From the NCBI GenBank assembly GCA_009700025.1, contig WLMW01000004.1, positions 1-44,836 of the forward strand: 44,836 nt of DNA, written 5' to 3'. This stretch comes from Actinomycetota bacterium (GTDB lineage: Bacteria; Actinomycetota; Actinomycetes; Nanopelagicales; Nanopelagicaceae). Made by a program: the position numbers and the translations under genes. Within the stretch, counting starts at the first letter, position 1. Each line of letters starts with the position of its first letter. Positions 7,320 to 39,217 of this stretch are shown one piece after another. The notes beneath the pieces are model-generated. The model had not been told where the DNA came from, searched no databases, and worked only from the letters and a program-made list of their open reading frames with translations.

Positions 7320-7880
7320 GTGGCAACTACAGCAGATATGAAGAATGGAATTACCCTAGATATTGAAGGTCAGCTTTGGAACGTAGTTGACTTTCAACAT
7401 GTCAAACCAGGCAAGGGTCCAGCATTCGTTCGCACGAAATTGAAATCTGTTTTAACCGGAAAAGTGATTGATCGAACTTTTAACTCAGGCGTTAAAATAG
7501 ATATCGAAATCTTGGAAAAGCGCGATATGCAGTTCCTCTACAAAGAGGGCGAAGACTTTGTTTTCATGGATGCCAAGACGTATGATCAGATAACAATTTC
7601 TATGGCAACCGTCGGCGCGATGGCAAATTACATGCTAGAAAATACAGATGCTGTTGTGGCGGTTCATGATGGAAATCCTCTCTATATCGAACTGGCTGCA
7701 TCGGTTCCTTTGAGAATCACTTACACAGAGCCGGGTATTCAAGGAGATCGTTCATCAGGTGGAACCAAACCTGCAACAGTTGAAACAGGAATTGAAATTC
7801 AGGTTCCGCTCTTCATAAAACAGGACGAAATTGTGATGGTAGATACTCGTGATGGTTCTTACCAAGGCCGCGCCAACTAG
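7320..7880 (+). CDS. efp: Elongation factor P, PGKGP-loop subfamily
   Basis: Relieves ribosome stalling at consecutive prolines. The 186 residues have the three-domain EF-P layout. The tip loop of domain I is P30-G31-K32-G33-P34, the palindromic PGKGP loop described for an actinobacterial EF-P subfamily that works with an unmodified lysine. No EpmA-like modifier is in the window. The start is GTG 7320, preceded by GTGGAG at a 7-base spacing. The stop overlaps the GTG start of nusB by one base. Confidence 0.96.
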
Positions 7881-8308
7881 TGTCCGCACGCAGCAAAGCC
7901 CGCAAAGCGGCCCTCGATTTACTTTTTGAGGCCGATATTAGGGGAACAAGTGCTGTTGAAACCCTCACAAGCCGCAATGTGATTGAAGAAGGTCCAGACG
8001 CTCGACCCATACGCGATTACACGCGTGAACTAGTTGTGGGAGTCGGAGATAATTTCCGTAAGATAGATGAATTGATTTCAACGTATGCCCAAGGGTGGGA
8101 TATGGATCGACTACCTACTGTTGATAGGAATATATTGCGCATTGGAATATATGAAATTCTTTGGTCACAAAATATCCCAGATGGTGTAGCTATTGACGAA
8201 TCTCTTACTCTAGCCAAAGAACTCTCAACAGATGGCTCCGCAGCATTTATTCATGGAGTGCTTGGACGCATATCCTCAATCAAAGATAGTCTGGCTATCG
8301 ATTATTAA
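7880..8308 (+). CDS. nusB: Transcription antitermination factor NusB
   Basis: Binds boxA RNA with S10 in rRNA antitermination complexes. The 142 residues start at GTG 7880 within TAGTG, overlapping the efp stop by one base. The N-terminal SKARKAALDLLFEADIRG and the C-terminal DGVAIDESLTLAKELSTDGSAAFIHGVLGRI are typical of NusB. Its 3' end overlaps the 3' end of the convergent bldD gene by 14 bp, an unusual tail-to-tail arrangement that leaves no room for a terminator between them. Confidence 0.95.
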   Translation: MSARSKARKAALDLLFEADIRGTSAVETLTSRNVIEEGPDARPIRDYTRELVVGVGDNFRKIDELISTYAQGWDMDRLPTVDRNILRIGIYEILWSQNIPDGVAIDESLTLAKELSTDGSAAFIHGVLGRISSIKDSLAIDY

Positions 8309-8783
8309 GGACTAAATCAAGCTCGCCCAGAAGTTGAAGTAATGCTTGAGGATTTTTACCTAATGTCATCGCTAAAGTTGAGATGTCGATTGCCCGAATT
8401 GATAAAACTTCTCCGTTGTAGTCATTTCGTTGTTTGACCACACCACTGATGAATGTAGTGATAGCCCGAATTTCAAAGGAAAGAAGTCCTTTTTGATCTA
8501 GATTCTTTACTAGTTTCTTTATTTCCCGTAAGTCGATTACCGCGGCGAAGGTAGAGAATGCACAATTTTTGGGCTCTTCTAAAAGATACGAGAGCGGCAC
8601 GCCATAGAATTGGGCGATTGATAATGCTTTTTTAATGCTCAGTGAGCGATCGCCGCGCTCATATGAACCTAGAACTACAGCTCGAATTGCCCGGTTACTC
8701 GCCCTCTCAACGTCCCCCAGTGAATAACCCCTCGAGGTTCTGATGGCTCTTAGGCGATCGCAGATACTCTGGTTCGTAGTCAT
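8295..8783 (-). CDS. bldD: BldD-family transcriptional regulator with c-di-GMP-binding signature
   Basis: A DNA-binding regulator of 162 residues counted from ATG 8783. The N-terminal XRE-type helix-turn-helix (residues 8-68, LRAIRTSRGYSLGDVE...VVLGSYERGDRSLSI...FYGVPLSYLL) closely follows Streptomyces BldD as I remember it. The C-terminal part keeps R119-x-D121-(8 residues)-R130-x-x-D133, the RxD-X8-RxxD motif by which BldD binds a cyclic-di-GMP tetramer. The position between nusB and pyrR is the bldD position of Streptomyces (SCO1489). In-frame ATGs at 8813 and 8831 would lengthen it, but 8783 best fits the family start. A -10-like TAGTCT lies 7 bases before this ATG on its strand, so the mRNA may be leaderless. 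Confidence 0.9.
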   Translation of the reverse strand: MTTNQSICDRLRAIRTSRGYSLGDVERASNRAIRAVVLGSYERGDRSLSIKKALSIAQFYGVPLSYLLEEPKNCAFSTFAAVIDLREIKKLVKNLDQKGLLSFEIRAITTFISGVVKQRNDYNGEVLSIRAIDISTLAMTLGKNPQALLQLLGELDLVLNNR

Positions 8784-8842
8784 GACCGACAGACTAATCC
8801 GGTCGTGGCTCATCAGTAATGGCTTATCCACAGCGACATTGG

Positions 8843-8860
8843 CGTGATGATATAGTCACC
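8843..8860. promoter_or_regulatory. Inverted repeat GTGA-N8-TCAC, candidate BldD operator
   Basis: GTGA (8844-8847) and TCACC (8856-8860) form an inverted repeat separated by 8 bases in the bldD/pyrR divergent region. The published BldD site is of the form AGTGA(n)TCACC; here only the first A differs. The repeat covers the best -10 hexamer for the pyr operon (8851-8856), so a bound protein would be expected to repress it. Assignment to BldD is inference from consensus and position. Confidence 0.45.
8851..8856 (+). promoter_or_regulatory. Probable -10 box of the pyr operon promoter
   Basis: TATAGT matches five of six bases of the -10 consensus. A weak -35 candidate, TCCACA, lies at 8827-8832 with an 18-bp spacer. 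Transcription would start near 8862 and give a leader of about 47 nucleotides that contains the hairpin at 8878-8895. Confidence 0.5.
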
Positions 8861-8877
8861 CCAGCATCCTTTAACGA

Positions 8878-8902
8878 CCCATCCAGAGAGATGGGGAAGG
8901 AG
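8878..8902 (+). promoter_or_regulatory. PyrR-binding RNA hairpin next to the pyrR Shine-Dalgarno
   Basis: CCCATC (8878-8883) pairs with GATGGG (8890-8895) around the loop CAGAGA. The segment ATCCAGAGAGAT closely fits the PyrR-binding consensus known from pyr leaders (roughly A-R-U-C-C-N-G-N-G-A-G-G-Y-U). The Shine-Dalgarno AAGGAG (8897-8902) begins one base after the stem, 6 bases before the pyrR ATG. There is no terminator or antiterminator partner in the short leader. This fits translational repression by PyrR, as reported for Mycobacterium smegmatis, and not attenuation. Confidence 0.75.
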
Positions 8903-8908
8903 ATTTAA

Positions 8909-9439
8909 ATGAGTTCTGCCCTGTCTGCACCAGAAATTGCGCGTGCATTGATTCGTATTTCCCATGAAATTCTTGAAGCTAATCCTGATTCGTCGAAAAT
9001 AACACTTCTTGGAATCCCCACTCGAGGGGCACATCTTGCTCATCGAATAGGTGTACACATGCGTGAGTTCGCAGGCCATGAAATCGCGGTAGGCACACTC
9101 GACATAACTATGCACCGCGACGATTTAAGAATGCGCCCACCGAGACCTATCATGCCGACGTCAATTCCTCATCAAGGAGTTGAAGGGCGGGAAGTGATTT
9201 TAATTGATGACGTTCTTTTTTCTGGTAGAACTATTCGCTCGGCATTAGATGCTTTAGGAGAAATCGGACGTCCCCGCAGAGTGCAGTTGGCGGTTTTAGT
9301 AGATCGAGGTCACCGAGAACTTCCTATTAGAGCTGATTTCGTGGGAAAAAATATTCCCACTTCAATTACACAGTCTGTAAAGCTGCATCTGACTGAGATT
9401 GATTCAGTCGATGAAGTAATGCTGGAGGATCAAAGATGA
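8909..9439 (+). CDS. pyrR: Bifunctional pyr operon regulator / uracil phosphoribosyltransferase PyrR
   Basis: An RNA-binding regulator with a phosphoribosyltransferase fold; with UMP or UTP it binds pyr mRNA leaders. The 176 residues include the PRPP-binding motif [17 protein letters not shown] near residue 100, and [13 protein letters not shown], typical of PyrR. It is the first gene of the pyrimidine operon and follows its own candidate binding hairpin. Its stop overlaps the pyrB ATG (ATGA). Confidence 0.96.
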
Positions 9440-10383
9440 GACATTTACTCTCAATCGCAGATCTCTCAAAAACTGAAGCTATCTCAATTCTAGACACTGC
9501 GGTGGAATTGGCTCGAATAAGTGATGGCACTGTTAAAAAACTTCCCACTCTTCGTGGTCGCACAATTGTCAATTTGTTTGCAGAGGATTCGACACGAACA
9601 CGCATTTCGTTCGAAGCTGCAGCCAAACGCTTGTCAGCAGATGTGATTAATTTCTCTGCTAAAGGATCTAGTTTAAGTAAAGGCGAATCCCTCAAAGATA
9701 CCGCGTTGACACTTCAGGCGATGGGTGCTGACGCAGTCGTGATACGTCATGGCGCTTCGGGTGCACCGCAACGTCTTGCAGATTCGGAATGGATGCAAGG
9801 AAGTGTCATCAATGCTGGTGATGGAACACACGAGCACCCAAGTCAGGCGCTGCTGGATGCGTTCACAATTCGTAAACATTTAGGAAAGGGTGCACCAGAT
9901 TTACATGGAATTAAAGTAGCCATAGTTGGGGATGTATTACATTCAAGAGTTGCACGTTCTAATGTTTTACTTCTCAACCTTTTGGGCGCAAAAGTTACTC
10001 TAGTGGCACCTCCGACATTGCTTCCGGTCGGCGTAGATAGTTGGCCAGTTAATATCTCATATAACTTTGATGAAGTAGTAGCTTCCGTTGATGTAGTGAT
10101 GATGTTGCGAGTGCAGCAAGAGCGGATGACGGATCTTTTTTTCCCCAACGCACGTGAGTATTCAAGATATTTTGGCCTCAACGCTGATCGTCTCTCAACC
10201 ATGTCTCCAACATCCATAGTTATGCACCCGGGACCAATGAATCGAGGGCTTGAGATTTCAGCCGACGTGGCTGATAGTGCTCGCTCGGTTATAGTTGAAC
10301 AAGTTGCCAATGGGGTAAGTGTAAGGATGGCTATTCTGTATGTTTTACTGGCGGGTCAACCTCTAGAAGTGGGCGGTAAATAA
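9436..10383 (+). CDS. pyrB: Aspartate carbamoyltransferase catalytic subunit
   Basis: Condenses carbamoyl phosphate with aspartate. The carbamoyl-phosphate site [10 protein letters not shown] lies near residue 52. [14 protein letters not shown] holds the Ser and Lys loop, [10 protein letters not shown] and [20 protein letters not shown] follow, and the aspartate-domain HPGPMNRG is near the C-terminus. At 315 residues it is normal. No pyrI regulatory subunit is nearby, as usual in Actinobacteria. Overlaps pyrR by ATGA. Confidence 0.97.
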
Positions 10384-10384
10384 T

Positions 10385-11692
10385 TTGTCTCAGCGCTACC
10401 TACTAAAGAATGCACAATTACCAAACGGTGCTCTGACTGATGTCCTTATCGTGGACGGTGTAATAGATTCAGTTGCGGTTAATATTGCCACGAATGACGC
10501 TGAAGTTTTTGACGTGACTGATTCGGTAGTTCTTCCCGGATTAGTAGATTTACATACGCATCTTCGCCAACCTGGACGTGAAGACGCCGAGACAGTTGAT
10601 TCTGGTTCAAGAGCTGGCGCTAAGGGCGGCTTTACCGCCCTCTCTGCAATGGCAAACACTTCACCAGTAGCTGACAATGCAGGTGTTGTCGAACAAGTAT
10701 TTCGATTAGGGCAAGAGGCGGGCTTGCTCGACGTCTTTCCTATTGGGGCTGTTACACGTGGTCTCGCAGGTCAAGAACTCTCTGAAATTGGGGCTATGGC
10801 GGATTCCATTGCTCGCGTGCGCGTATTTAGTGATGATGGAAATTGTGTTTTTGATCCACTCGTCATGCGCCGGGCCCTCGAGTACGTCAAGAAATTTGAT
10901 GGTGTCATCTCTCAACATGCGCAAGAGCCACGTCTAACCATCGGATCGCAGATGAATGAAGGCAACGTCTCGTCAATTCTCGGGTTGAAAGGTTGGCCAG
11001 CAATTGCCGAAGAAGCGATTATTGCCAGAGACGTCTTACTTGTAGATCATGTGCAATCACGCTTACATATTGCTCACGTAACAACAGCTGGGGGAGTGGA
11101 AATCATTCGCTGGGCCAAGGCACGTGGGATTAATGTCACTGCCGAGGTAACTCCTCATCATTTGTTATTGACTGATGAATTGGCGCGCTCGTATGACCCA
11201 GTTTTCAAAGTTAATCCACCATTACGTTCCGAGAAAGATGTTATGGCCTTGCGTGAGGCGTTAGCCGACGGAACCATTGATATTGTTGCAACAGACCACG
11301 CGCCACACACGATGGAATCAAAAGAGTGCGAATGGTCTGAGGCGAGTTTCGGAATGATTGGGTTAGAGACTGCGCTTTCAGTTGTTCAGAAGGCAATGAT
11401 TGACACTGGAATAATGAGTTGGGAGCAAGTTGCGGATCGCTTATCTACTGCGCCCGCAAGAATTGCCGGCTATGAGTATCAAGGTAAAAATTTAGCCGTT
11501 GGCTCACGTGCAAACTTGACTGTAATTAATCCTAAAAAAACTTGGATTGTCGATAGAGATCTTGTTACATCTAAAAGTCGCAATACTCCGTTTCACGGCT
11601 ATGAGTTACCTGGAGTTATCACGCATACATTCTTCAATGGAGTTCCAACTTTACTCAATGGTGTAATTAATCAAGCAAATGGCAAAAAATGA
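10385..11692 (+). CDS. pyrC: Dihydroorotase
   Basis: Cyclises carbamoyl-aspartate to dihydroorotate. It is a class I amidohydrolase of 435 residues. The metal motif DLHTHLRQPGRED and the product-binding ATDHAPHTMESKECEW are present. The start is TTG 10385, one base after the pyrB stop, giving MSQRYLLKNAQ; no ATG fits better. The last 4 bp overlap carA. The small membrane-protein gene that lies between pyrC and carA in mycobacteria and Streptomyces is absent here. Confidence 0.96.
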   Translation: MSQRYLLKNAQLPNGALTDVLIVDGVIDSVAVNIATNDAEVFDVTDSVVLPGLVDLHTHLRQPGREDAETVDSGSRAGAKGGFTALSAMANTSPVADNAGVVEQVFRLGQEAGLLDVFPIGAVTRGLAGQELSEIGAMADSIARVRVFSDDGNCVFDPLVMRRALEYVKKFDGVISQHAQEPRLTIGSQMNEGNVSSILGLKGWPAIAEEAIIARDVLLVDHVQSRLHIAHVTTAGGVEIIRWAKARGINVTAEVTPHHLLLTDELARSYDPVFKVNPPLRSEKDVMALREALADGTIDIVATDHAPHTMESKECEWSEASFGMIGLETALSVVQKAMIDTGIMSWEQVADRLSTAPARIAGYEYQGKNLAVGSRANLTVINPKKTWIVDRDLVTSKSRNTPFHGYELPGVITHTFFNGVPTLLNGVINQANGKK

Positions 11693-12804
11693 GTGTTGCA
11701 TATTTTGTTTTAGACGACGGACGAATTTTTGAGGGAAGGTCCTGGGGCGCTGTTGGGAAAGTCTTTGGAGAGGCTGTGTTTCAAACTGGCATGACCGGAT
11801 ATCAAGAAGTTCTAACCGACCCGTCCTACCATAAACAGGTTGTTGTAATGACCGCCCCACACATTGGTAACACTGGTTTTAATCATCAAGATAACGAGTC
11901 ATCGAGGATCTGGGTTACTGGTTTTGCTGTGCGAACACCATCAACGCTGACATCGAATTGGCGAAGTGAGAAGGATTTAGAGCAAGCTTTAATTGATCAA
12001 TCAGTGGTCGGAATTCAAGGAATTGATACTCGGGCCATTACGCGTCACTTACGCGATCGTGGCTCCATGCGTGTTGGAATTTTCTCAGGACTAGAACTTT
12101 CGCGTGAAGAGATGGTGATAGAGGTTCGCAAAGTAGAATCCATGTCAGGAGCATTTTTAGTCGCCGATGTTTCAACCCCACATGCATATGTCGTACCTGC
12201 TGTAGGAGTGAAGAAATTTGTAGTGGCGGCATTGGACTTAGGTATTAAGTCTGCAACACCTCGTGCACTAGCGGCGCGAGGCGTAGAAGTTCACGTTCTT
12301 CCCTTTAACGCAACCATTGAAGAGATAAACGAACTAAATCCAGACGGCGTATTCCTTTCAAATGGTCCTGGCGATCCGGCAACAATGAACGTCATCATTG
12401 ATCTAGTTAGAGAGTTATTGCTCCAGGAAGTTCCGATCTTTGGAATATGTTTCGGCCACCAAATATTTGGACGAGCTCTTGGATTCGAAACTTACAAACT
12501 TGCTTTTGGCCACCGAGGTATTAATCAGCCGGTGATTGATAGAAGTACCGGTAAAGTAGAAATAACTTCACATAATCATGGGTTTGCGTTGAAAGCACCT
12601 GCTGATCGAGAATTTTCAACTGTGTATGGACGGGGAGAAGTCACCCACATTAGCCTCAACGATGGCGTAATAGAGGGAATTCGATTATTGGATCGTCCCG
12701 CTTTCTCAGTCCAATATCATCCAGAAGCTGCATCCGGTCCACATGATGCAGCCTATCTATTCGATAGTTTTTTAGAGTTAATGAGCAAGAAGGTCCACGG
12801 ATAA
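11689..12804 (+). CDS. carA: Carbamoyl-phosphate synthase small (glutaminase) subunit
   Basis: Releases ammonia from glutamine for CarB. The 371 residues carry the class I amidotransferase triad: the nucleophile Cys in FGICFGHQ and the His-Glu of [18 protein letters not shown] forms the oxyanion region. The N-terminal [14 protein letters not shown] is typical of CarA. It overlaps pyrC by ATGA and carB by one base (TAATG). Confidence 0.97.
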
Positions 12805-15800
12805 TGCCATTAGATCCCGCCATTAAATCCGTACTTGTAATTGGGAGCGGACCTATTGTTATTGGTCAGGCATGCGAATTTGATTACTCTGGCACGCAAG
12901 CCTGCCGAGTTTTGCGTGAAGAGGGAATTCGCGTGATCCTTGTTAATTCAAATCCTGCAACTATTATGACTGATCCTGAGTTTGCAGATGCCACATATAT
13001 TGAACCAATCACCCCTGATGTTATTGAAAAAATTATTGCAAAAGAGAAGCCAGATGCTGTCTTGGCGACTCTTGGAGGTCAAACCGCTCTGAATGCCGCA
13101 ATTCAAATGCACGATCTTGGAATCCTGGAACGATATGGAGTGCGTTTAATAGGGGCTGATGTGGATGCAATCAATAGAGGTGAGAACCGCGAACTATTTA
13201 GAGAGATAGTGGCTAAAGTCGGAGGGGAGTCCGCTCGTTCAATCATTTGTCACACGATGAACGAAATCTATTCTGGTGTCGAGTCTCTGGGTTTTCCGGT
13301 TGTTGTACGTCCCTCTTTCACTATGGGAGGACTCGGTTCAGGAATTGCTTTTAATAAAGATGAGCTTACCCAGATCGCAGGTGCAGGACTTCGCCATAGT
13401 CCAACGTCGGAAGTTCTGCTGGAAGAATCAATTATTGGTTGGAAAGAGTACGAACTAGAGGTAATGAGAGATAGAAAAGATAACGTAGTTATTGTATGTA
13501 GTATTGAAAATATTGATCCGATGGGTGTTCATACGGGTGATTCAATAACAGTTGCACCTGCAATGACGCTTACCGATGTTGAATATCAACAGTTAAGAGA
13601 CCTATCGCTAGACATCATCAGAGAAGTTGGTGTTGATACTGGGGGTTGCAACATCCAGTTCGCTGTTAACCCAGCAAATGGGCGAATTATCGTTATTGAG
13701 ATGAATCCACGAGTATCTCGATCCAGCGCTTTGGCATCGAAAGCAACAGGTTTTCCGATTGCTAAAATTGCAACAAAACTAGCTATTGGTTACACGCTAG
13801 ATGAAATCACAAATGACATCACGAAAGTCACACCGGCTTCTTTTGAACCAACCTTGGATTACGTTGTGGTAAAGGTTCCACGCTTTGCCTTCGAAAAATT
13901 TGCTGATGCGGATCCACGATTGACCACGACCATGAAAAGTGTTGGAGAGGCAATGGCTATCGGCCGTTCATTCTCAGAAGCTCTAATGAAAGCCTTGCGC
14001 TCTCTCGAGCGCAAGGAGGCAATTTTCACTTGGTCCAAAGTTGACGAGAATGAGAAAGAAAATCTCCTACTTTCCATGCAGGTGCCGACTGAGTACCGAC
14101 TTCAACAAGTTCAACGAGCTATGTGGGCTGGCGCCTCTATTGACGAAGTAAACAGAGCGTGCGCAATTGACCCATGGTATTTAAGACAGATAGAAATCAT
14201 AAATGATGAGGTGTCCCTGATTGGCGAACTCGGTGAACTAAGTCTTGAAGTCTTGAAGCGAGCGAAAAACGTTGGCTTTTCTGATGCACAAATTGGCGCG
14301 ATTCGGGGGATACCTGAAGATGAGGTGAGACGAGTACGACACCATCTAGGAATACGTCCTGTTTATAAAACTGTAGACACGTGTGCCGCTGAGTTTGAGG
14401 CTTTTACTCCTTATCATTATTCAAGTTATGAAGAGGAGACAGAAGTTCGACCTCGCACAACTCCTGCAGTAATTATTCTTGGTAGTGGACCAAACAGAAT
14501 TGGGCAGGGGATTGAATTCGATTATTCCTGTGTGCATGCATCATTTGCACTGCGCGCAGCTGGATTTGAAACTGTCATGATAAATTGTAATCCTGAAACG
14601 GTTTCAACCGATTATGACACAAGTGATCGTTTATATTTTGAACCACTCACTCTAGAAGATGTTTTAGAAGTTATTCATGCGGAAAGTCTGGTAGGTCCAG
14701 TTCTAGGTGTAGTTACACAGCTGGGAGGACAAACGCCTCTTGGGCTAGCAGCTGGATTGGAAGCAAATGGTGTTGTCATTCTGGGAACTAGTCCTCAAGC
14801 TATTCATTTGGCCGAAGAACGTGGTGCATTCGGTGAAATATTGGCAAAGGAAGGTTTGAATGCTCCCGAATTCGGTATGGCTGCATCAGAGCTCGAAGCA
14901 ATTTCTATTGCCTCACGAATTGGATATCCAGTCCTTGTTAGACCTTCTTTCGTTTTGGGCGGAAGGGGTATGGAGATTGTCTACGATGACAAAGCTTTAG
15001 CTGGTTTTATTTCGCGAGCGACAGATATAACACCTGATCGTCCCGTTCTCGTTGATAGATTTTTAGATAGCGCGATAGAGATAGATGTTGATGCCCTTTA
15101 TGACGGTACTGAACTCTTTCTGGGTGGCGTTATGGAACACATCGAGGAAGCGGGAATTCATAGTGGTGATAGTGCATGTGTACTGCCATCAATGACAGTC
15201 TCAGATAATCAACTTGTGCTAATAAAAGAGGCGACACAAAAAATTGCAGATTCTGTTGGAGTACTTGGATTAATCAATATTCAATTCGCAATTGAGTCCG
15301 ATATCCTTTATGTTCTTGAGGCAAATCCACGCGCCTCGCGCACGGTTCCTTTTGTTAGTAAGGCCACCGGAGTACCTTTAGCCAAGGCGGCGGCAAGAAT
15401 ATCTCTAGGCGCTTCGATTAATTCACTTCGACAAGAGGGTTTATTACCCGAGTCGGGCGATGCGATAGCGAGAGGAATTTCGGTGAAAGAGGCTGTATTG
15501 CCATGGAATAGGTTTCGACGGAGTGATGGCCGCGGGGTAGATTCAATTCTTGGACCAGAGATGCGCTCTACCGGAGAAGTGATGGGAATTTCCCCCAGCT
15601 TTGGAGAAAGTTATGCGAAGTCCCAAATAGCCGCATTTGGTCCGCTACCGAAGAAAGGCGTTGTTTTTATATCCCTAGCGGATAAAGATAAAGCTTCAGG
15701 TACTCTCGCCGCTGCGGGCTTAGTAAACTTGGGTTTTTCTATTTTGGCAACATCAGGAACATGCAAGTATCTGGCAGAGCACGGCGTAACTGCTTTTCCT

Positions 15801-16070
15801 GTTCGCAAAAACTCAGATGGAACTGGTCCGTTGGGTGAGCCTACTATTGTAGACATAATAAATTCTGGAGAAATTGACTTGGTAATCAATACACCCGTTG
15901 GAAGAGGTACGCGTGCTGATGGATGGCTTATTCGTACCGCATCTGTTCAACGCTCAATACCAATTATTACGACAACTGCGGGTTTCCACGCGGCAGTTGA
16001 AGGCATTCGCTTCATTCAATCAAATGAACTTTCAATTAAATCTTTGCAGCAGTGGTTAGGAAAATTATGA
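12804..16070 (+). CDS. carB: Carbamoyl-phosphate synthase large subunit
   Basis: Makes carbamoyl phosphate from bicarbonate, ammonia and two ATP. The 1088 residues hold two homologous ATP-grasp halves; [17 protein letters not shown] and [17 protein letters not shown] begin each half, and [18 protein letters not shown] and [18 protein letters not shown] end each ATP site. The C-terminal MGS-like allosteric domain (from about residue 945) contains [12 protein letters not shown] and VINTPVGRG. It serves both pyrimidine and arginine synthesis. Confidence 0.98.
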
Positions 16071-16903
16071 CCCAAATCAATAAAAGTGCAGCACAGTTGA
16101 ATGCAATGATTGTTAGCAATAAACGTGTTGGCCAGTATCATCAGATTATTTTCAACGTGGGTGACAACGCAGATAAGTGCAAGCCAGGTAATTTTGTCGC
16201 AATTAATGTAGGTGGTGATACCTCGCGGATGGTATTGCGCAGAGCCTTTGCCATATCTCGGGTAACGAAGAGTCAATCTTTTGGAGGTACGATTGAATTA
16301 ATCGTCGCACCACACGGACAGGGAAGTAAATGGCTTTGTGCGCAGGAAGAAGGAGCGATAATCGATGTTGTTACTCCGTTAGGAACGGCTTTCGGAATTC
16401 CCACTGAACCAGTTCAAGTTTTACTTGTTGGCGGAGGATATGGCTCTGCACCATTGTTTGGTCTGGCAGAAGTTCTCAACGCTCGAGGTTGCCGAGTGGA
16501 CATGCTTCTCGGAGCAAGTACTGCGAACAAGATCTATGCGCCAATGGAGGGTAAACGCTCCGTAAACTCTTTGCGCATCTACACAGAGGATGGTTCGATG
16601 GGTCAAAAGGGCCGCGTTACCGACCCAATTCCAGCGCTTCTCAATGATTTGGATATAGCTGTTGTTTATTCATGCGGTCCTATGGCGATGCTTGCTGCAA
16701 TAAACGAGATAACAATGCAGTCAGAAGTAATCCATCAGTGTGCGGTTGAAGAGTCTATGGCTTGTGGCATTGGTATCTGCATGACCTGCGTTTTACCAGT
16801 GGCTAATAGTCAGGGTGAGATTTCTATGCTGCGATCATGCATTGATGGTCCAGTAATGGATGGAGCTTTAGTTCAGTGGGATAAAGTAGGTCACGTGTTA
16901 TGA
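16067..16903 (+). CDS. pyrK: Dihydroorotate dehydrogenase electron-transfer subunit (PyrK-like)
   Basis: Carries electrons from the class 1B dihydroorotate dehydrogenase to NAD through FAD and a 2Fe-2S cluster. The 278 residues have a ferredoxin-reductase layout: FAD-binding region RRAFAISR near residue 50, nucleotide-binding [16 protein letters not shown], and the C-terminal iron-sulfur cysteines in [17 protein letters not shown] plus RSCIDGP. The start is set at ATG 16067, which overlaps the carB stop by 4 bp and has an AGGA upstream; an earlier GTG at 16052 is less likely. Pairing with the next gene supports the assignment. Confidence 0.9.
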
Positions 16904-17841
16904 GTGAATTAGATTTTTCTACTACGTTGGGGAACGCATGGTTTCCGTCTCCTATTTTCACTGCAAGTGGTTGTGCTAGTTCCGGACGGGAGTTGGCACA
17001 ATTTTTTCCTCTCAGTGATATTGGGGGAGTAGTAACAAAATCAGTGATGTCCAAGGCTCGCAGCGGGCGACCAACTCCACGGATGGCTGAAACACCTAGT
17101 GGCATGCTTAACTCAATTGGATTGCAAGGCCCTGGGATTGATGCTTTTATTGAAAAAGATATTCCATACTTAATATCTCAGAAAGCACGCATTGTGGTCT
17201 CTATTGCAGGAGAAACCGTTGAAGAGTATTCAACGCTTGCGCGCAAGTTACGATCTGTTGCAGGGATTAGTGCAGTTGAAGTCAATATTTCATGCCCAAA
17301 CGTTGAAAATAGAGGTCTTGTTTTTGCTTGTGACCCCGAAGCCTCTCGACGTGTTATTGATGGTGTTCGACGCACTCTCGGTGGAGAGCTGCCCATCATC
17401 GCAAAACTATCACCTGATGTTACAGATTTAGTCTCGATTGCCACGGGAGTTGTTGATGCTGGCGCTGATGCTCTCGCATTGATAAACACTGTATTGGGGA
17501 TGGTTATAAATCTTGACACTATGCGCCCGCATTTAGGTGGGAAAACTGGTGGATTATCTGGGCCAGCTATAAAACCAATCGCTGTTCGCGCTGTCTATCA
17601 GGTACACGCAGCTCTACCAAAAACCCCAATTCTCGGGATGGGCGGTATCTCTAGCGGTCGTGATGCCCTAGAGATGATCGCAGCTGGAGCAAGTGGAGTG
17701 TCAATTGGTACCGCAAGTTTTGGAAATCCAACCGCTTTGATAACTATCCAAAATGAGTTGAAAGAGTTATTGCAGGTTAAAGGATTTACGTCGTTTAGAG
17801 ATGCCGTAGGTTTTGCACACCGGGATGAAGAAGGTGATTGA
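16900..17841 (+). CDS. pyrD: Dihydroorotate dehydrogenase, class 1B catalytic subunit
   Basis: Oxidises dihydroorotate to orotate with FMN. Class 1B features are a soluble protein of 313 residues with no membrane helix, VNISCPNVENRG with the catalytic cysteine (class 2 enzymes use serine), GMLNSIGLQGPG, GLSGPAIKPIAVRAVY and the phosphate loop GMGGISSGRDALEMIAAGAS. The adjacent pyrK completes a D2K2-type enzyme. Mycobacteria instead carry the quinone-linked class 2 enzyme. Confidence 0.95.
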   Translation: MSELDFSTTLGNAWFPSPIFTASGCASSGRELAQFFPLSDIGGVVTKSVMSKARSGRPTPRMAETPSGMLNSIGLQGPGIDAFIEKDIPYLISQKARIVVSIAGETVEEYSTLARKLRSVAGISAVEVNISCPNVENRGLVFACDPEASRRVIDGVRRTLGGELPIIAKLSPDVTDLVSIATGVVDAGADALALINTVLGMVINLDTMRPHLGGKTGGLSGPAIKPIAVRAVYQVHAALPKTPILGMGGISSGRDALEMIAAGASGVSIGTASFGNPTALITIQNELKELLQVKGFTSFRDAVGFAHRDEEGD

Positions 17842-17842
17842 T

Positions 17843-18547
17843 TTGAGTAAGAGTGCGCCAATTGTCTTAGCGTTAGATACATCTGATTTAGCAACAGCAT
17901 TGGATTGGATTGAGGCAACTAACGGCCTTATTCGAGTTTACAAATTAGGTCTAGAGTTTTTTCTAAATTTTGGTCATGATGGGGTTCGCGCAATCTCAAG
18001 TTCAACTGATGCAGAGATTTTTTTAGATCTTAAGCTGCATGACATTCCCCACACGGTAAAGGGGGCAGCGCTTGCGATTTCTGAGCTCAAACCACGCTAT
18101 CTCACGGTGCACGCCTCCGGTGGCGAAGCCATGGTGCGGGCGGCCGCTGAGGCACTTAAATTCACGAGCGTCACAGGAGTAACTATTCTGACTTCTTTAT
18201 CAGAGGCCGATGTGAGTGCTATTGGTTACCGCCAAAGCGCTCTCGAGAGCGCAGTGGGATTAGCTAAAATTGCAGTCTCTGGTGGAGCTAGAGCAATTGT
18301 GTGTTCGCCGCTCGAAATAGTGGAAATTCGTAAAGCTATTGGAACGCAAGTCGAGATAATCACGCCTGGTGTTAGGCCAGCCGATATTCAATCTTCTGAT
18401 GATCAAATGCGAACCATGACACCGCGACAGGCGATAGACAGAGGTGCGGATCTGGTAGTGATTGGACGACCAATCACGTCTGCTTGGATGAATGGCGCTC
18501 AGGCCATGCGTGAACGAGCTGAGCAAATCACTTCAGAAATTCTCTAA
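17843..18547 (+). CDS. pyrF: Orotidine 5'-phosphate decarboxylase
   Basis: Decarboxylates OMP to UMP, the last step of the pathway. The catalytic D-x-K-x-x-D motif is DLKLHDIPHTV; TPGVRP and VIGRPIT form the phosphate site. The start is set at TTG 17843, two bases after the pyrD stop, because AAGGTG lies 6 bases upstream and the N-terminus MSKSAPIVLALD fits; in-frame ATG 17825 and TTG 17813 lack a ribosome-binding site. The protein is of the E. coli-like type. It is the last gene of the pyr block. Confidence 0.93.
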   Translation: MSKSAPIVLALDTSDLATALDWIEATNGLIRVYKLGLEFFLNFGHDGVRAISSSTDAEIFLDLKLHDIPHTVKGAALAISELKPRYLTVHASGGEAMVRAAAEALKFTSVTGVTILTSLSEADVSAIGYRQSALESAVGLAKIAVSGGARAIVCSPLEIVEIRKAIGTQVEIITPGVRPADIQSSDDQMRTMTPRQAIDRGADLVVIGRPITSAWMNGAQAMRERAEQITSEIL

Positions 18548-18563
18548 TTCAATCTCTTTAGAC

Positions 18564-18575
18564 TAGGTTATTTTC
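18564..18575 (+). promoter_or_regulatory. Possible leaderless promoter (-10) before the mIHF-Gmk gene
   Basis: TAGGTT at 18564-18569 sits at exactly -12 to -7 from the ATG at 18576, the place expected for a leaderless actinobacterial mRNA (TANNNT). The same bases contain AGG at an 8-base spacing, which could act as a weak Shine-Dalgarno, so the sequence does not decide between the two. No good -35 is seen. Confidence 0.3.
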
Positions 18576-19448
18576 ATGGTAAACCCTCCTATTCTCTCAG
18601 CAGAACAACGTGCTACAGCACTTGTAAAAGCTTTGGAAGCAAGAAAGCGTCGAGCTGACGTTAAGGCCAAAGTGAGAAGTGGCGAATTTTCCATTGATAC
18701 GGTGTTAGAAATAGCAAGCAACGAAGAGTCAATTGCAAAAATGAGGGTTCGTGAACTATTGGAAGCTGTCAGTGGAGTTGGAAATGTTCGCGCATTGGCC
18801 TTGATGGAGCGGTTAAATATTTCACCAACGCGTAGAATTGCCGGACTTGGCCGACATCAGATGAGAGATCTACGAAGAGAGTTTATGAAAACTGCACGAG
18901 ATATTACACCTGGAAAATTATTGGTTCTTTCGGGTCCAGGTGGTGTTGGTAAAAGTACAGTCGCTTCTCGCTTGAGAGCTACGGGCGATTTTTGGGTTAG
19001 TATTTCAGCGACGACAAGAGCGCCGCGCTCCAATGAAATCGATGCCGTAGATTATTTCTTCATTACTGAGGATGAGTTCTCACGTCGTATTCGAGATGAT
19101 GAATTTTTGGAGTGGGCTGAGTTTGCTGGAAATCGCTATGGCACTCCTAGCGTTCCGGTGGAAGAGGCATTACTGGCAGGTCGCAACGTGTTGCTTGAGA
19201 TTGAAATCGATGGAGCTCGACAAGTCAAAGCCCACATGTCGAACGCGATTACGGTATTTCTGGAACCACCAACGTGGGAAGAGTTAGTAGCAAGGCTTGT
19301 CGGCCGAGGCACGGATAGCCCTGAAAGGAGAGCAGAGCGGTTGCAACTGGCGCAGGACGAGCTTGCTTCAGCGCCAAATTTTGACGTTGTTGTAGTCAAT
19401 GATCAGGTCGAACGGGTAGTTGAACAACTGATAGCATTAACCTCTTGA
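18576..19448 (+). CDS. gmk: Fusion of actinobacterial integration host factor (mIHF) and guanylate kinase
   Basis: One uninterrupted frame of 290 residues joins two proteins that are separate neighbours in other Actinobacteria. Residues 1-104 are an mIHF domain: NPPILSAEQRATAL, the helix-two-turn-helix region EAVSGVGNVRALALMERLNI, and RRIAGLGRHQMRDLRREF. Residues 108-290 are guanylate kinase, which phosphorylates GMP to GDP: P-loop GPGGVGKST (120-128, Gly where Ser is usual), GMP-binding SISATTRAPRSNE and YFFI, EWAEFAGNRYGT, LLEIEIDGARQVK, lid GRGTDSPERRAERL. The linker is only a few residues. An internal ATG at 18885 (Met104) could start a free kinase of 187 residues, with only a weak GAAGAGA upstream. 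rpoZ follows, as usual after gmk. Confidence 0.9.
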   Translation: MVNPPILSAEQRATALVKALEARKRRADVKAKVRSGEFSIDTVLEIASNEESIAKMRVRELLEAVSGVGNVRALALMERLNISPTRRIAGLGRHQMRDLRREFMKTARDITPGKLLVLSGPGGVGKSTVASRLRATGDFWVSISATTRAPRSNEIDAVDYFFITEDEFSRRIRDDEFLEWAEFAGNRYGTPSVPVEEALLAGRNVLLEIEIDGARQVKAHMSNAITVFLEPPTWEELVARLVGRGTDSPERRAERLQLAQDELASAPNFDVVVVNDQVERVVEQLIALTS

Positions 19449-19484
19449 CCAGAGGATTACATAGCAAATGAGCGGGGAATAACT

Positions 19485-19733
19485 ATGGATGGCATAACAA
19501 ATCCACCAATAGATGAGCTTCTAGATAAAAGTGGATCCAAGTACAGCTTGGTTCTTTACGCGGCAAAACGTGCCCGCCAAATTAATGCTTATTACTCCCA
19601 ACTGGGTGAAGGATTACTCGAATACGTAGGCCCATTGGTTGAGACACATGTTCATGAGAAGCCGCTATCTATTGCCTTACGTGAAATTAATGAAGGCCTA
19701 CTCACGATTGAAAATCTCGAACCAACGGCTTAA
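19485..19733 (+). CDS. rpoZ: DNA-directed RNA polymerase omega subunit
   Basis: A small subunit that helps assemble RNA polymerase. The 82 residues contain the family core [20 protein letters not shown] and the C-terminal [15 protein letters not shown]. It has a good ribosome-binding site (GGGGAA, about 7 bases upstream of ATG 19485). It lies between gmk and coaBC as in most Actinobacteria. Confidence 0.93.
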
Positions 19734-19751
19734 CTGAACTTTTCCACTCCC

Positions 19752-20936
19752 ATGTCTGCCAGTAATCGTGAGGTAGTACTTGGAGTTGGTGCAGGTATTG
19801 CTGCATATAAGTCCTGCGAATTGTTGCGCAGACTCCAAGATCGAGGATATACCGTCACGGTAGTTCCGACACCGTCCTCCTTGAACTTTGTTGGCTCGGC
19901 AACGTGGGAAGCACTTTCCGGTCGACCGGTCAGTACCGAGGTTTGGGACAACGTCCATGAGGTTTCACATATCTCCCTGGCTCAAAAAGCAGATTTTTTT
20001 GTTATCGCGCCAGCTACTGCAGATTTGATTGCACGTATAGCCATGGGGCGCGCCGATGATTTACTTACTAATTTAGTTCTGGCGTCTGAAGCACCTTTAT
20101 TGATTGTTCCTGCAATGCATCCTGCGATGTGGCTGGACCCTGCAACTATTGCAAATGTACAAACTCTTCGGTCACGTGGTTATGTTGTGATGGAGCCGGA
20201 GACTGGTCGGTTGACTGGTCGTGACTCAGGTCAGGGGAGATTTCCAGAGACTTCTTCAATTATTGAAAAGTTTGACGTAATAACTGGAAATGTTCGTGAC
20301 CTTGTAGGTAAGCGAGTTTTAATTAGTGGCGGAGGAACTCGTGAGGCAATTGACCCTGTTCGCTTTATTGGTAATCGTTCAAGTGGGAAACAGGCGGTAG
20401 CACTTGCGTCGGCGGCTTTATTACGGGGAGCTGATGTCCATTTAGTTGCAGCAAATATGTCGACTGAAGAACTTGGAGGAGTCACAGTTACTGAAGTAGA
20501 AAGCGCCCAAGAGATGCATCAAGCCTTGCTACATGAGTTCCCGCTCTGCGATGTGCTTGTTATGTGTGCGGCTGTAGCGGATGCAAAGCCGACTCAACGA
20601 TTTACTGAGAAGATCAAGAAAACTTTTTTAACCTCGATTAACCTTGAGCCAAATCCCGACATAGTGGCGGAACTTTCAAAGACCAAGCAGGGTCAGATAA
20701 TGATCGGCTTTGCGGCTGAAACTAGTCATCACACAGAGGCTGCCCGTTCCAAGTTAGTGGCTAAAGGATTAGATGCAATTTACGTAAATGACGTCAGTGA
20801 TGGTGCTATCTTTGGGAAAGATACAACGCAGGGTATGATTCTCTCACGCACTGGTGCGGACATAGCGCTCAAGGAAGTCTCCAAAGACGCTCTTGCACAT
20901 TTACTCCTTGATTATGCCGCACGGCAGTTAGGTTAA
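19752..20936 (+). CDS. coaBC: Bifunctional phosphopantothenoylcysteine decarboxylase / phosphopantothenate-cysteine ligase
   Basis: Carries out two steps of coenzyme A synthesis. The N-terminal CoaC flavoprotein half (about 1-185) shows [18 protein letters not shown], the active-site His in [15 protein letters not shown], and VPAMHPAMW (the usual PAMN is PAMH here). The C-terminal CoaB half shows [34 protein letters not shown] and IGFAAET. The 394 residues are normal for the fused enzyme. Only 15 bp separate it from rpoZ and 4 bp from metK. Confidence 0.95.
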
Positions 20937-20940
20937 ATAC

Positions 20941-22131
20941 ATGTCAAAACGTTTATTTACTTCTGAGTCTGTTACTGAAGGACATCCGGACAAGATTGCA
21001 GATGCGATTTCTGATGCAGTTCTCGATTCTTTGCTATCACAAGATGTAAAGAGTCGCGTAGCGGTAGAGACGTTAATTACTACCGGTCAAGTGCATGTTG
21101 CAGGCGAAGTAACAACTAACGGATATGCAGATGTGAATACCATTGTTCGAGATACTGTTTTGAACATCGGTTATGACTCATCGGCTAAAGGCTTTGATGG
21201 CAATAGTTGCGGAGTCTCAATTTCTATCGGTCAGCAATCTCAAGATATTGCCCAAGGTGTTAATGACTCGTATGAACACCGAGTAGCTGCCGGTGCGGAT
21301 CCATTGGATTTACAGGGTGCCGGCGACCAAGGTTTAATGTTCGGTTATGCCTGTGATGACACCAAGGAGCTTATGCCTTTACCGATTTGGCTTGCACACG
21401 CTCTAGCTCAGCAATTATCTCGGGTGCGCAAGTCAGGTGAACTGCCTTATTTACGCCCGGATGGAAAAACTCAAGTAACTATTGAATACGATGGTGATCG
21501 CGCGGTAGCACTGAACACTGTTGTCATTTCCAGCCAGCATTCAGAAGATGTTGACGTTGTGGCCAAGTTAACACCTGAAATTACGGAGTTCGTTATTGAA
21601 CCAATATTGGCAACAATCGATTTACCTCGCAAGGACCTTAAGGTCCTCATAAACCCAACGGGGCGCTTTGTCATTGGTGGACCCATGGGAGATGCGGGAT
21701 TAACTGGTCGAAAGATCATTGTTGACACCTATGGCGGCATGGCACGGCATGGTGGCGGTGCTTTTAGCGGAAAGGATCCTTCTAAAGTGGATCGCTCTGC
21801 TGCTTATGCAATGCGTTGGGTTGCCAAAAACGTAGTTGCTGCGGGTTTAGCCCGTCGCTGCGAAGTACAAGTTGCTTATGCAATTGGTAAAGCGCAACCA
21901 GTAGGGCTTTTTGTTGAAACTTTTGGCACGGAAACTGTTCCAGTTTCCAAAATTCAAGATGCAGTACTTGCAACTTTCGATTTGCGTCCCGCGGCTATTA
22001 TTCGTGATCTCGATTTACTGCGCCCAATTTATAAGCTCACCAGTTCATACGGTCATTTTGGAAGAGAATTACCTGAGTTTGCTTGGGAACGCACCGATCG
22101 TGTGAGTGCTCTTCAGAGCGCTATCAAATAG
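20941..22131 (+). CDS. metK: S-adenosylmethionine synthetase
   Basis: Makes SAM from methionine and ATP. The 396 residues start with the typical [38 protein letters not shown] (ATP/methionine signature) and [19 protein letters not shown] (second signature) are intact. It is cytosolic, and the active enzyme is a tetramer in the family. It sits between coaBC and priA. No SAM riboswitch precedes it; the 4-bp gap to coaBC points to co-transcription. Confidence 0.98.
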
Positions 22132-22134
22132 CCA

Positions 22135-24018
22135 ATGAGTACGTCGGGCCGCTTGCGCTTGAAGGCGCAGGTAATTGCTCGTGATCATATTCCTGCAAGT
22201 GATAAACCATTTGCTCGTCTCTGGGTGGATACTGGGGTTTACCATCTCGATGAAGTCTTTGACTATTCGGTTCCGGAATTCTTATCAATATTTGTCAATG
22301 TCGGTGTGCGGGTACAAGTGCCTTTCAATGGGAGGGAGGTCGAGGCGATCGTTGTAGAGCGATCGAGCGAATCGCATATAACTGGCACTATCAGACCCAT
22401 AACTAAAGTTCTCTCAAGACATCCGGTTGCAACAAAAAACTCTCTTAAGCTGATCGCTCAAGTAGCAACGCATTGGTGCACTAATCCTTTTGACATTTTA
22501 CGTAGCGCAATACCCCCACGCGTAGCACGTGTCGATAAAATTGAACTGCCTAGAAATGGCGAGATAGAGAGAGTTAATTCGGGGGCTGGGTTGCTCTCTT
22601 TCATCGCATTTACTCCACAAACTCCGCCGGATATCTCCCTTGCCTCCCTTGCTGTATCGGCGCTGGCGGCAGGCTCAGTTCTTGTTATTGCTCCAGATGA
22701 GGCTGATGTTGTCGCAATTTGTTCGGCAATCGATTCTTTAGGTTTTGCATACCTTCGTCTTGATAGTGCACAGTCTCGCGATGTTAGATATGAAAACTAT
22801 CTAAAGTCCATGACGACGGACAACATTATCGTCATTGGGGCACGATCTGCGATATTCACCCCCGTAAATAATTTGGCTACGATTTTCATCTATAAAGAGT
22901 CTTCGCATGAGCACTATGAGATTCGTAGTCCCGGTTGGAATGTACGCGACGTAGCATTCCTGCGCCATGGATTAGAGCATTTGAATCTTGTATTCACTGG
23001 CTATGTTCCATCTTTGGAAATCTCAAAGCTCATTGAAGATAAAGCGTTGAATTATATTAGTGATTCATGTCGCTTAAGAGTCAAAAACTATTCCTCGAAT
23101 GATGGAGCACTCTTACCAGGAGGAATCTTCACCGATATTAGGAAGGCTCTTAGCATTGGGCCCGTGCTTTTTCTCATTACCCGAAAAGGATATGGAAACG
23201 CAGTTGTTTGTGCGCACTGTAGAAATATGGCGATGTGCAGTTGCGGTGCACGGTTAGTCGTAAACTCTAAAACAGCATCACCAAGTTGCACGATTTGTTT
23301 GAAAACTTTCCCGGAATGGTCATGCAAATTTTGTCAGCGAAATAAACAGTACATAGCTGGACGAGGAATTGAACGTGCAGCAGAGGAAATTTCTCGGGCT
23401 TTTATGGGGTTTCCAATTTTCCTCTCATATGGTGATGTCATAAAAAAGGAGATTGCTCACAAAACCGCAATTGTTATCGCTACTCCCGGAGCAGCACCAA
23501 AAGTCTCTGGCGGTTATGGGGCAGTAGTGATTTTAGAGGGGTTAAAGTTCTTCTCTCATCCTGATTTGCGTGCGCAAGAGCGTGCTAGAGAACTTTTTTT
23601 TGAAACGGCAGCGATGGTAAGTCCAGATGGGGCGGTTCTCTTGTGCATCGATTCAGGACATCCAATAAATTCGGCCCTCATGCGTTGGAATCCAGGTTTA
23701 ATGATTCAAACTGAGCTTGCAGAGCATCAAGAGATTCCACTGCCACCCTTTGTTTCTAGCTTCGTGATAACCGGTCCCTTAGATGAATTCACAGGGCTAG
23801 TAAATGGTTTGCAGAAAGCGATGACAGATGAACGAATTCCCGCTTCCACAAAGATATTTGGTCCGATACCTGTAGGAAAGTTAAAATCCAAAATAGTTCT
23901 CTATTGTGCAACGCAAGACTCCCAGAACTTGACTGCATTTTTACATGAATTACAACGTAGACGGAGCATTGCAAAGAAAGAGCATCTCGTTATCAGGGTG
24001 GACCCTTATTCATTGTGA
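22135..24018 (+). CDS. priA: PriA-like primosomal protein N', helicase motifs lost
   Basis: A replication-restart protein homologue of 627 residues. The N-terminal DNA-binding region (RLWVDTGVYHLDEVFDYSVPE, RVQVPFNGREVEAIVVE) and the cysteine-rich zinc region (CAHCRNMAMCSCG, CTIC, CKFC, about residues 361-400) are present. No Walker A GxGKT can be found where it should be, and the DEEH box is replaced by IYKESSHEHYE, so it should not hydrolyse ATP. This loss is known for actinobacterial PriA, so it is unlikely to be a pseudogene. The frame is intact and it starts 3 bp after metK. Confidence 0.88.
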   Translation: MSTSGRLRLKAQVIARDHIPASDKPFARLWVDTGVYHLDEVFDYSVPEFLSIFVNVGVRVQVPFNGREVEAIVVERSSESHITGTIRPITKVLSRHPVATKNSLKLIAQVATHWCTNPFDILRSAIPPRVARVDKIELPRNGEIERVNSGAGLLSFIAFTPQTPPDISLASLAVSALAAGSVLVIAPDEADVVAICSAIDSLGFAYLRLDSAQSRDVRYENYLKSMTTDNIIVIGARSAIFTPVNNLATIFIYKESSHEHYEIRSPGWNVRDVAFLRHGLEHLNLVFTGYVPSLEISKLIEDKALNYISDSCRLRVKNYSSNDGALLPGGIFTDIRKALSIGPVLFLITRKGYGNAVVCAHCRNMAMCSCGARLVVNSKTASPSCTICLKTFPEWSCKFCQRNKQYIAGRGIERAAEEISRAFMGFPIFLSYGDVIKKEIAHKTAIVIATPGAAPKVSGGYGAVVILEGLKFFSHPDLRAQERARELFFETAAMVSPDGAVLLCIDSGHPINSALMRWNPGLMIQTELAEHQEIPLPPFVSSFVITGPLDEFTGLVNGLQKAMTDERIPASTKIFGPIPVGKLKSKIVLYCATQDSQNLTAFLHELQRRRSIAKKEHLVIRVDPYSL

Positions 24019-38687: not shown

Positions 38688-38689
38688 TA

Positions 38690-39217
38690 TTAGATAAGCG
38701 CCAGCGAAGTCAGCTTGATCGCTGGGAACGAATCGGTGAGGCTCTCTCGACCAGACAGACCCGTAATCTCTAGGAGTACAAGAACATCGGTTACTGAGCC
38801 ACCACATTGATGAATCAAGTCGATGGCTGCATTCAAGGTTCCACCAGTAGCTAAAACATCGTCTACTAGGACAATGTTGTCACCTTTGTTGATTGCATCA
38901 ACATGAATCTCTAACGTAGATGCTCCATATTCGAGGCCATAACTTTGGGAGATGGACGTGTATGGGAGTTTGCCAGCTTTTCGAATGGGCACAAAACCAG
39001 ATCCAATATTGTGAGCCAATGCTGATGCAAAGATGAAACCACGGGCTTCAATTCCGGCGACCAGTGTGCCCTTGTTGATGAGTGCTGAAAACTCATGAGT
39101 GACGGCAGCAAATGCCTCGGCGTTGGCTAAAAGGGGGGTGATATCTTGAAACCGAATACCTGGTTCAGGAAAGTCCGGAATTTCGCGGATGAGGATGAGT
39201 GCATCAGCGATTTGCAT
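38690..39217 (-). CDS. apt: Adenine phosphoribosyltransferase
   Basis: Makes AMP from adenine and PRPP. The 175 residues contain IPDFPEPGIRFQDITPLL, GIEARGFIFASALAHNIGSGFVPIRKAGKLP and the PRPP motif VLVDDVLATGGTL. ATG 39217 is the only possible start: the frame meets TAG at 39244-39242, inside the upstream tRNA-Leu, and no other start codon lies between. Only one base separates this ATG from the tRNA 3' end, so no independent ribosome-binding site exists. In many Actinobacteria apt sits beside relA; here it is elsewhere. Confidence 0.96.
   Translation of the reverse strand: MQIADALILIREIPDFPEPGIRFQDITPLLANAEAFAAVTHEFSALINKGTLVAGIEARGFIFASALAHNIGSGFVPIRKAGKLPYTSISQSYGLEYGASTLEIHVDAINKGDNIVLVDDVLATGGTLNAAIDLIHQCGGSVTDVLVLLEITGLSGRESLTDSFPAIKLTSLALI

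Follow-up and report, generated by a model that had tools for sequence, protein, structure and literature searches.

In Mycobacterium tuberculosis, mIHF binds and bends DNA, as reported in PMC3724605, and its gene, mihF, has gmk and rpoZ downstream, such that deletion of mihF is polar on both. The source that reports this polarity (PMC6155035) describes mIHF as essential in this organism in its abstract, and Gmk, the guanylate kinase, is termed essential in the abstract of PMC5686395. The order mihF, gmk, rpoZ given for M. tuberculosis in PMC6155035 is also the order at the locus described here, which lies in a stretch of 44,836 nucleotides that was analysed as a whole and is called the window in what follows. 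At this locus the first two genes form one open reading frame, and its features and immediate neighbours are as follows:

17813..18547, + strand: pyrF (OMP decarboxylase), upstream neighbour, PF00215
18576..19448, + strand: mihF-gmk fusion gene, 290 aa, one frame, no internal stop on translation
18588..18884, + strand: mIHF (actino_IHF) domain, residues 5-103, matched by NF041260
18885..18911, + strand: junction, residues 104-112, short linker of lower model confidence
18885..18887, + strand: in-frame ATG (Met104), candidate internal start for a 187-aa kinase, from the codon counts at the junction
18912..19439, + strand: guanylate kinase domain, residues 113-288, matched by TIGR03263, with a fold match to 1s4q
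18933..18956, + strand: P-loop GPGGVGKS, residues 120-127, read from the sequence
19485..19733, + strand: rpoZ (RNA polymerase omega), downstream neighbour, PF01192

The initial annotation had proposed a single-frame fusion of mIHF to guanylate kinase with no stop between the two, and this is borne out by the 290-residue translation, in which both profiles score above their curated cut-offs. In particular, NF041260 matches residues 5-103 with 111 bits (cut-off 60) and TIGR03263 matches residues 113-288 with 213 bits (cut-off 160.45), while Pfam places PF22525 at 34-103 and PF00625 at 114-285. The start of the fusion is well fixed, since the stop-to-stop frame spans 293 codons and is open for just 3 codons 5' of the ATG. 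The kinase is complete, as had been claimed, and its P-loop covers residues 120-127. G120, G125, K126, S144, R148, R151, Y160, E179, Y188 and T190 are common to all 48 fused proteins in the alignment, and P121 of the P-loop is likewise invariant; the P-loop and these conserved columns are presumably active-site residues.

The two domains had also been described as joined with no linker, a view that the predicted structure qualifies. In an AlphaFold2 model built with 48 fused proteins (mean pLDDT 95.3), the final mIHF helix ends at residue 104 and the first kinase strand starts at residue 115, with a mean pLDDT of 72 in the block 101-110 versus 95 and 96 in the flanking parts. The model points to a short, probably flexible joint, with a length estimated at about 8-10 residues, and the junction differs in both length and sequence among the 48 aligned proteins. 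Each single domain is confidently modelled, unlike the joint and the mutual orientation of the domains, the latter being of low confidence because the pTM is 0.68. A Foldseek search with the model gives M. tuberculosis Gmk (1s4q) as the best fold match, with an E of 4.0e-23 and a TMt of 0.86.

The surroundings of the gene are those of a mostly same-strand cluster (7320-24018) with several overlaps of 1-4 bases. The cluster includes efp, nusB, pyrimidine genes, the mihF-gmk fusion, rpoZ, coaBC and priA, with carB and metK named by eye, and its pyrimidine genes comprise a phosphoribosyltransferase, a dihydroorotase-like protein, a DHODB Fe-S subunit, pyrD and pyrF. For the PriA-like protein at 22135-24018 (627 aa), the sole Pfam match at E <= 1e-5 is to a 3'DNA-binding domain, and a helicase domain is not reported. 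Elsewhere in the window, at 36837-38807 on the minus strand, Acyltransferase-3 and SGNH domains share one protein, a known architecture.

Whether the joined frame is conserved in Nanopelagicales and elsewhere was a question raised by the initial annotation, and sampling of related genomes shows it to be so in most of two families. Within the window's genus, 49 of 49 sampled genomes are fused, 13 of these being single-contig assemblies of the order sample. The order sample, 121 genomes drawn from one family throughout (the family of the window's genome, hereafter f1), contains 102 genomes with an intact fusion, 2 in which the fused gene is cut by a contig end (G060, G117) and 17 with separate adjoining genes (4 from genus g10, 6 from g17, 3 each from g6 and g11, and 1 from g13). 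In G060 (loci L129 and L130), the cut fused gene is accompanied by a second kinase at the start of another contig, and this bin perhaps holds two organisms. An even sample of f1 (61 genomes) has 36 intact fusions, 1 cut fusion (again G060) and 22 genomes with separate genes; in the other two, the parts share a frame with a TAG between them (G014) or the kinase part alone is detected (G058, 73% complete). Of the named loci that are close, two (L012 and L018) come from Ca. Planktophila, a genus of Nanopelagicaceae. A second family with fusions, f31, has 77 fused genomes among 80 sampled; it is taken to be Microbacteriaceae because the nearest named proteins of one of its fusions include Microterricola, a genus of that family, together with Leifsonia, Agromyces, Cryobacterium and others. 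In the third, f29, the fusion occurs in 7 of 59 sampled genomes, namely all 4 of genus g89 and 3 of the 7 of genus g175, the remainder of g175 consisting of 3 genomes with separate genes and 1 cut at the contig start. In a sample of the class, matches occur in 194 of 196 genomes and, among the rows listed, stop-free fusions are limited to these three families, f31 being fused in 9 of 10 genomes, with G270 as the remaining one. Outside the class (91 genomes sampled, 2 of them without any match), no stop-free join appears among the rows listed and adjoining mihF and gmk are common. Other relatives carry mihF and gmk as adjoining or overlapping genes.

The fusion also appears to stand alone in the genomes that carry it. 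No separate mihF or gmk was found beside it in the window's own genome (85% complete), which has one mIHF match and one fusion match, and this answers the earlier suggestion that separate copies be sought in the same genomes. The same genome has a partial HU match, and mIHF is therefore probably not its sole nucleoid protein. Scanning with NF041260 gives a single match above cut-off in each of 60 of the 61 f1 genomes, with none in G058, and two genomes with separate genes (G041, G048) have one additional fragment under the cut-off. Of the 80 f31 genomes, 78 are matched at E <= 0.001 and 73 above cut-off, the mIHF part of four fused genomes (G325, G339, G357, G386) scoring 52-58 bits, under the cut-off; 20-bit fragments are seen in G323, which is kinase-only, and as a second match in G317. 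Across these 61 f1 and 80 f31 genomes, no second mIHF above cut-off is present in any. The 7 fused f29 genomes show a single match each, to the fusion itself, while the NF041260 scan refers to f1 and f31. Three f31 genomes, G376 (L154), G321 (L155) and G323 (L156), have no mIHF above cut-off and keep the kinase alone, so the mIHF domain is dispensable in f31; in G376, a stretch rich in Ala, Pro and Thr precedes the kinase in place of mIHF. As a separate observation, gmk loci without detectable mihF alongside occur in genera g171 and g59 of f29 and g21 of family f5, lineages without the fusion in which mIHF has possibly been lost.

The reading that we consider probable is that one bifunctional chain is both the sole mIHF and the sole guanylate kinase of the cell, binding DNA and phosphorylating GMP. 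We infer that the cell makes the full-length chain, that neither activity has been lost and that the protein lies at the nucleoid. That the fusion could instead be an artefact of sequencing, assembly or gene modelling is rejected, its probability being negligible: the window does come from an 85%-complete draft genome of 69 contigs, but conservation over the genus and over a second family rules out the frameshift error that the initial annotation had allowed for, and the unanimity of the genus, with its single-contig genomes, excludes an assembly slip. Relatives with a stop and a restart between the domains, named in advance as a warning sign, do exist (g6, g10, g11, g13, g15, g17), but they are distinct lineages and not a sign of an error here. 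A more serious alternative, though still an unlikely one, is that the fused frame yields two products, either the full-length chain plus a kinase started at the ATG at 18885 or a chain cut in its linker. An in-frame junction ATG is indeed found in 25 of 30 loci of the genus, some start codon (ATG, GTG or TTG) falls in the junction of 53 of 56 f1 loci, the A content around the ATG at 18885 is high (88th percentile) and the linker is the part of lower model confidence. Outside the genus, however, only 13 of 74 other fused loci have the ATG (9 of 26 other f1 loci, 3 of 41 in f31 and 1 of 7 in f29), and a junction without any ATG, GTG or TTG occurs in 21 of 41 f31 and 3 of 7 f29 loci, next to 2 of 30 in the genus and 1 of 26 in the other f1 loci. 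At the position of the ATG at 18885, the relative L016 carries a Leu codon that cannot serve as a start, mRNA folding around that ATG is unremarkable (54th percentile), and Shine-Dalgarno pairing at 33 junction ATGs averages -2.42 kcal/mol versus -2.37 at random positions, a weak test given that annotated starts of f1 average -1.8 to -2.2 and are not distinct from random either. Regarding cleavage, no common motif is visible, as the linker varies in sequence and length. A free kinase from the internal ATG, as first suggested, is thus possible in the window's genus and family but is not a general mechanism, and with so few loci elsewhere having the ATG, the simplest reading for the fusions in general is that one chain is made.

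The single chain could also be bifunctional in name only, if the mIHF part were a decaying passenger that has lost or weakened its DNA binding after the fusion and persists as a mere N-terminal extension of Gmk. This possibility, which we regard as improbable, draws on the third Arg of the RRxR motif: a basic residue stands at position 89 in 6 of 65 fused proteins versus 54 of 63 separate ones, so that 59 of 65 fused proteins lack it, and the window protein has Ala89 (motif RRIA), from which it follows that its DNA binding may be altered, although this Arg is usual in free mIHF without defining the family. It also draws on the altered mIHF N-terminus of f31, where fused proteins score 52-83 bits with NF041260 versus a range of 83-138 bits for the pooled fused and free proteins of f1 (fragments left aside), and on the three kinase-only genomes of that family. 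The association of Arg89 loss with fusion goes in the right direction but is not significant in phylogenetically independent pairs, the supported ones being too few (3 and 5), and the free proteins of g17 have lost Arg89 as well. The other basic residues are retained: of 65 fused proteins, all have R23, R26, K30 and R72, 64 have R86 and R87, and 63 have R57, and R23, R26, K30, R72, R86 and R87 are all present in the window. The mean net charge of mIHF is +8.2 in the clade of g1, g3, g4 and g5, which includes the window's genus, versus +7.1 for free mIHF of other families. In the genus, purifying selection acts strongly on both domains, with a median dN/dS of 0.038 for mIHF and 0.019 for the kinase (17 usable of 435 pairs). 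The ratio of mIHF to kinase divergence is 1.34-1.52 in fused sets, somewhat above the free proteins of other families (1.08) and of f1 (1.19), but the free proteins of f29 reach an equally high 1.53.

With regard to origin, the fusion is presumably the derived state and the separate genes the older one, given the separate arrangement found across the phylum. On a tree of the mIHF and kinase domains (60 rows, careful search, 200 bootstrap trees), 5 changes of the fused or separate label are needed, every one of them required by starred branches, and a single change is obtained in 0% of the 200 bootstrap trees. A quick tree of 137 rows needs 6 changes when fused and separate rows are considered, or 8 for the fused label when kinase-only rows are counted, with just 3 changes of the fused label forced by its supported branches. 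Three fused clusters stand apart with separate lineages in between, and g11 and g17, which have separate genes, are nested among fused lineages. Change counts by themselves do not separate gain from loss, but because the separate state prevails elsewhere in the class and the phylum, the simplest reading is that three or more fusions took place, together with two other events, involving g11 with g17 and the mixed genus g175, which are read here as splits or additional fusions. The fusion has probably evolved repeatedly. Transfer of one fused gene is not favoured, as the fused sequences of f1 and f29 group with the separate ones of their own families, and is also disfavoured by the grouping of f31 with separate sequences of f18, f22, f26 and f37.

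How the genes came to be joined may be read from their unfused relatives. In 7 of 7 g11 and g17 loci and 9 of 9 f29 loci, the stop of mihF and the candidate start of gmk have 4 or 1 bases in common, which makes an in-frame join a small step; in the deeper separate f1 lineages g6, g10, g13 and g15, the genes do not overlap and lie 4 to 34 bases apart. A natural near-fusion is seen in G014 (L133), where the two genes share a frame, a single TAG stands between them and 30 nt separate this stop from the kinase domain. Two adjoining, co-transcribed genes, close or overlapping, would have been joined in frame when the stop was lost or a small indel occurred at their junction. The ATGA at 18885-18888 might be a relic of a stop-start overlap, which is suggestive only, the motif being absent in other subclades. 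Genome streamlining is insufficient as the sole cause, since 62 of the 77 fused f31 genomes are of at least 2.8 Mb.

A link to (p)ppGpp, also raised in the initial annotation, is not supported. According to PMC6783271, whether the Gmk of B. subtilis and E. coli is sensitive to (p)ppGpp depends on the C-terminal tail that the adjoining monomer supplies. Here this tail is short, whether the kinase is fused or free, with a median of 3 residues after the domain in f1 for both, and reaches at least 15 residues in 4 of 41 fused f31, 0 of 55 fused f1 and 0 of 7 fused f29 proteins, and among separate ones in 0 of 19 from f1, 2 of 9 from f29 and 1 of 35 others. By comparison, the S. aureus Gmk chain 4qrh has 29 residues beyond the aligned end, while most Gmks here have a short tail. 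The window's own genome has an Rsh match.

Returning to the single bifunctional chain, the N-terminal domain would still bind DNA as a nucleoid protein while the C-terminal domain would convert GMP to GDP, such that Gmk would be held to mIHF at 1:1 and much of it would be expected at the nucleoid. Provided that neither activity has been lost, how much GTP precursor is made, and where, is bound up with a chromosome protein. Going further, DNA binding could be coupled to GTP supply, which is speculation: occupancy of the mIHF domain by DNA would alter the activity or oligomeric state of a DNA-responsive, nucleoid-tethered Gmk, or binding of GMP or GDP would alter DNA bending, and such coupling would be the reason why the genes were repeatedly joined and have been kept joined across most of two families. 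We hold this extension to be doubtful. In any case, several lineages have mIHF and Gmk in a single chain and yielded no spare copy of either; Ca. Planktophila, named among the most abundant freshwater genera in PMC7527133, is one of them. These organisms thus offer a natural system for studying nucleoid structure against guanine nucleotide supply, with sister lineages carrying separate genes as controls.

Such proteins are not new to the databases. NCBI and UniRef already contain fusions of this type with both Pfam domains listed, under names that, where shown, are nearly always 'guanylate kinase' (best 120 matches of each listing), and since the records say only this, name-based surveys of mIHF would miss them. 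In the literature searched, which leaves most subscription journals outside, no functional description of an mIHF-Gmk fusion was found. The closest described proteins are known in the free form: the mIHF Rv1388 of M. tuberculosis (6tob) matches residues 1-103 in sequence (E 8.7e-19), the sIHF SCO1480 of Streptomyces (4itq, 6bek) matches residues 4-103 (4itq, E 3.4e-21), and the best fold match, the Gmk Rv1389 of M. tuberculosis (1s4q, 1znw), shows 47% identity and is a separate protein. Rv1388 and SCO1480 have chains of 109 and 107 aa with a complete RRxR, unlike the RRIA of the window protein. The nearest counterparts in architecture are the Microbacteriaceae proteins of about 300 aa called 'guanylate kinase', for instance in the four genera named above, which likewise carry PF22525 and PF00625 in this order in a single chain and, in the fused f31 rows, are 38-50% identical to the window protein; they differ from it in forming their own fused cluster on the tree, in their altered mIHF N-terminus and in the scarcity of the junction ATG. 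Collectively, the gene in the window is a real, conserved fusion of known parts, with its like already present in public databases.
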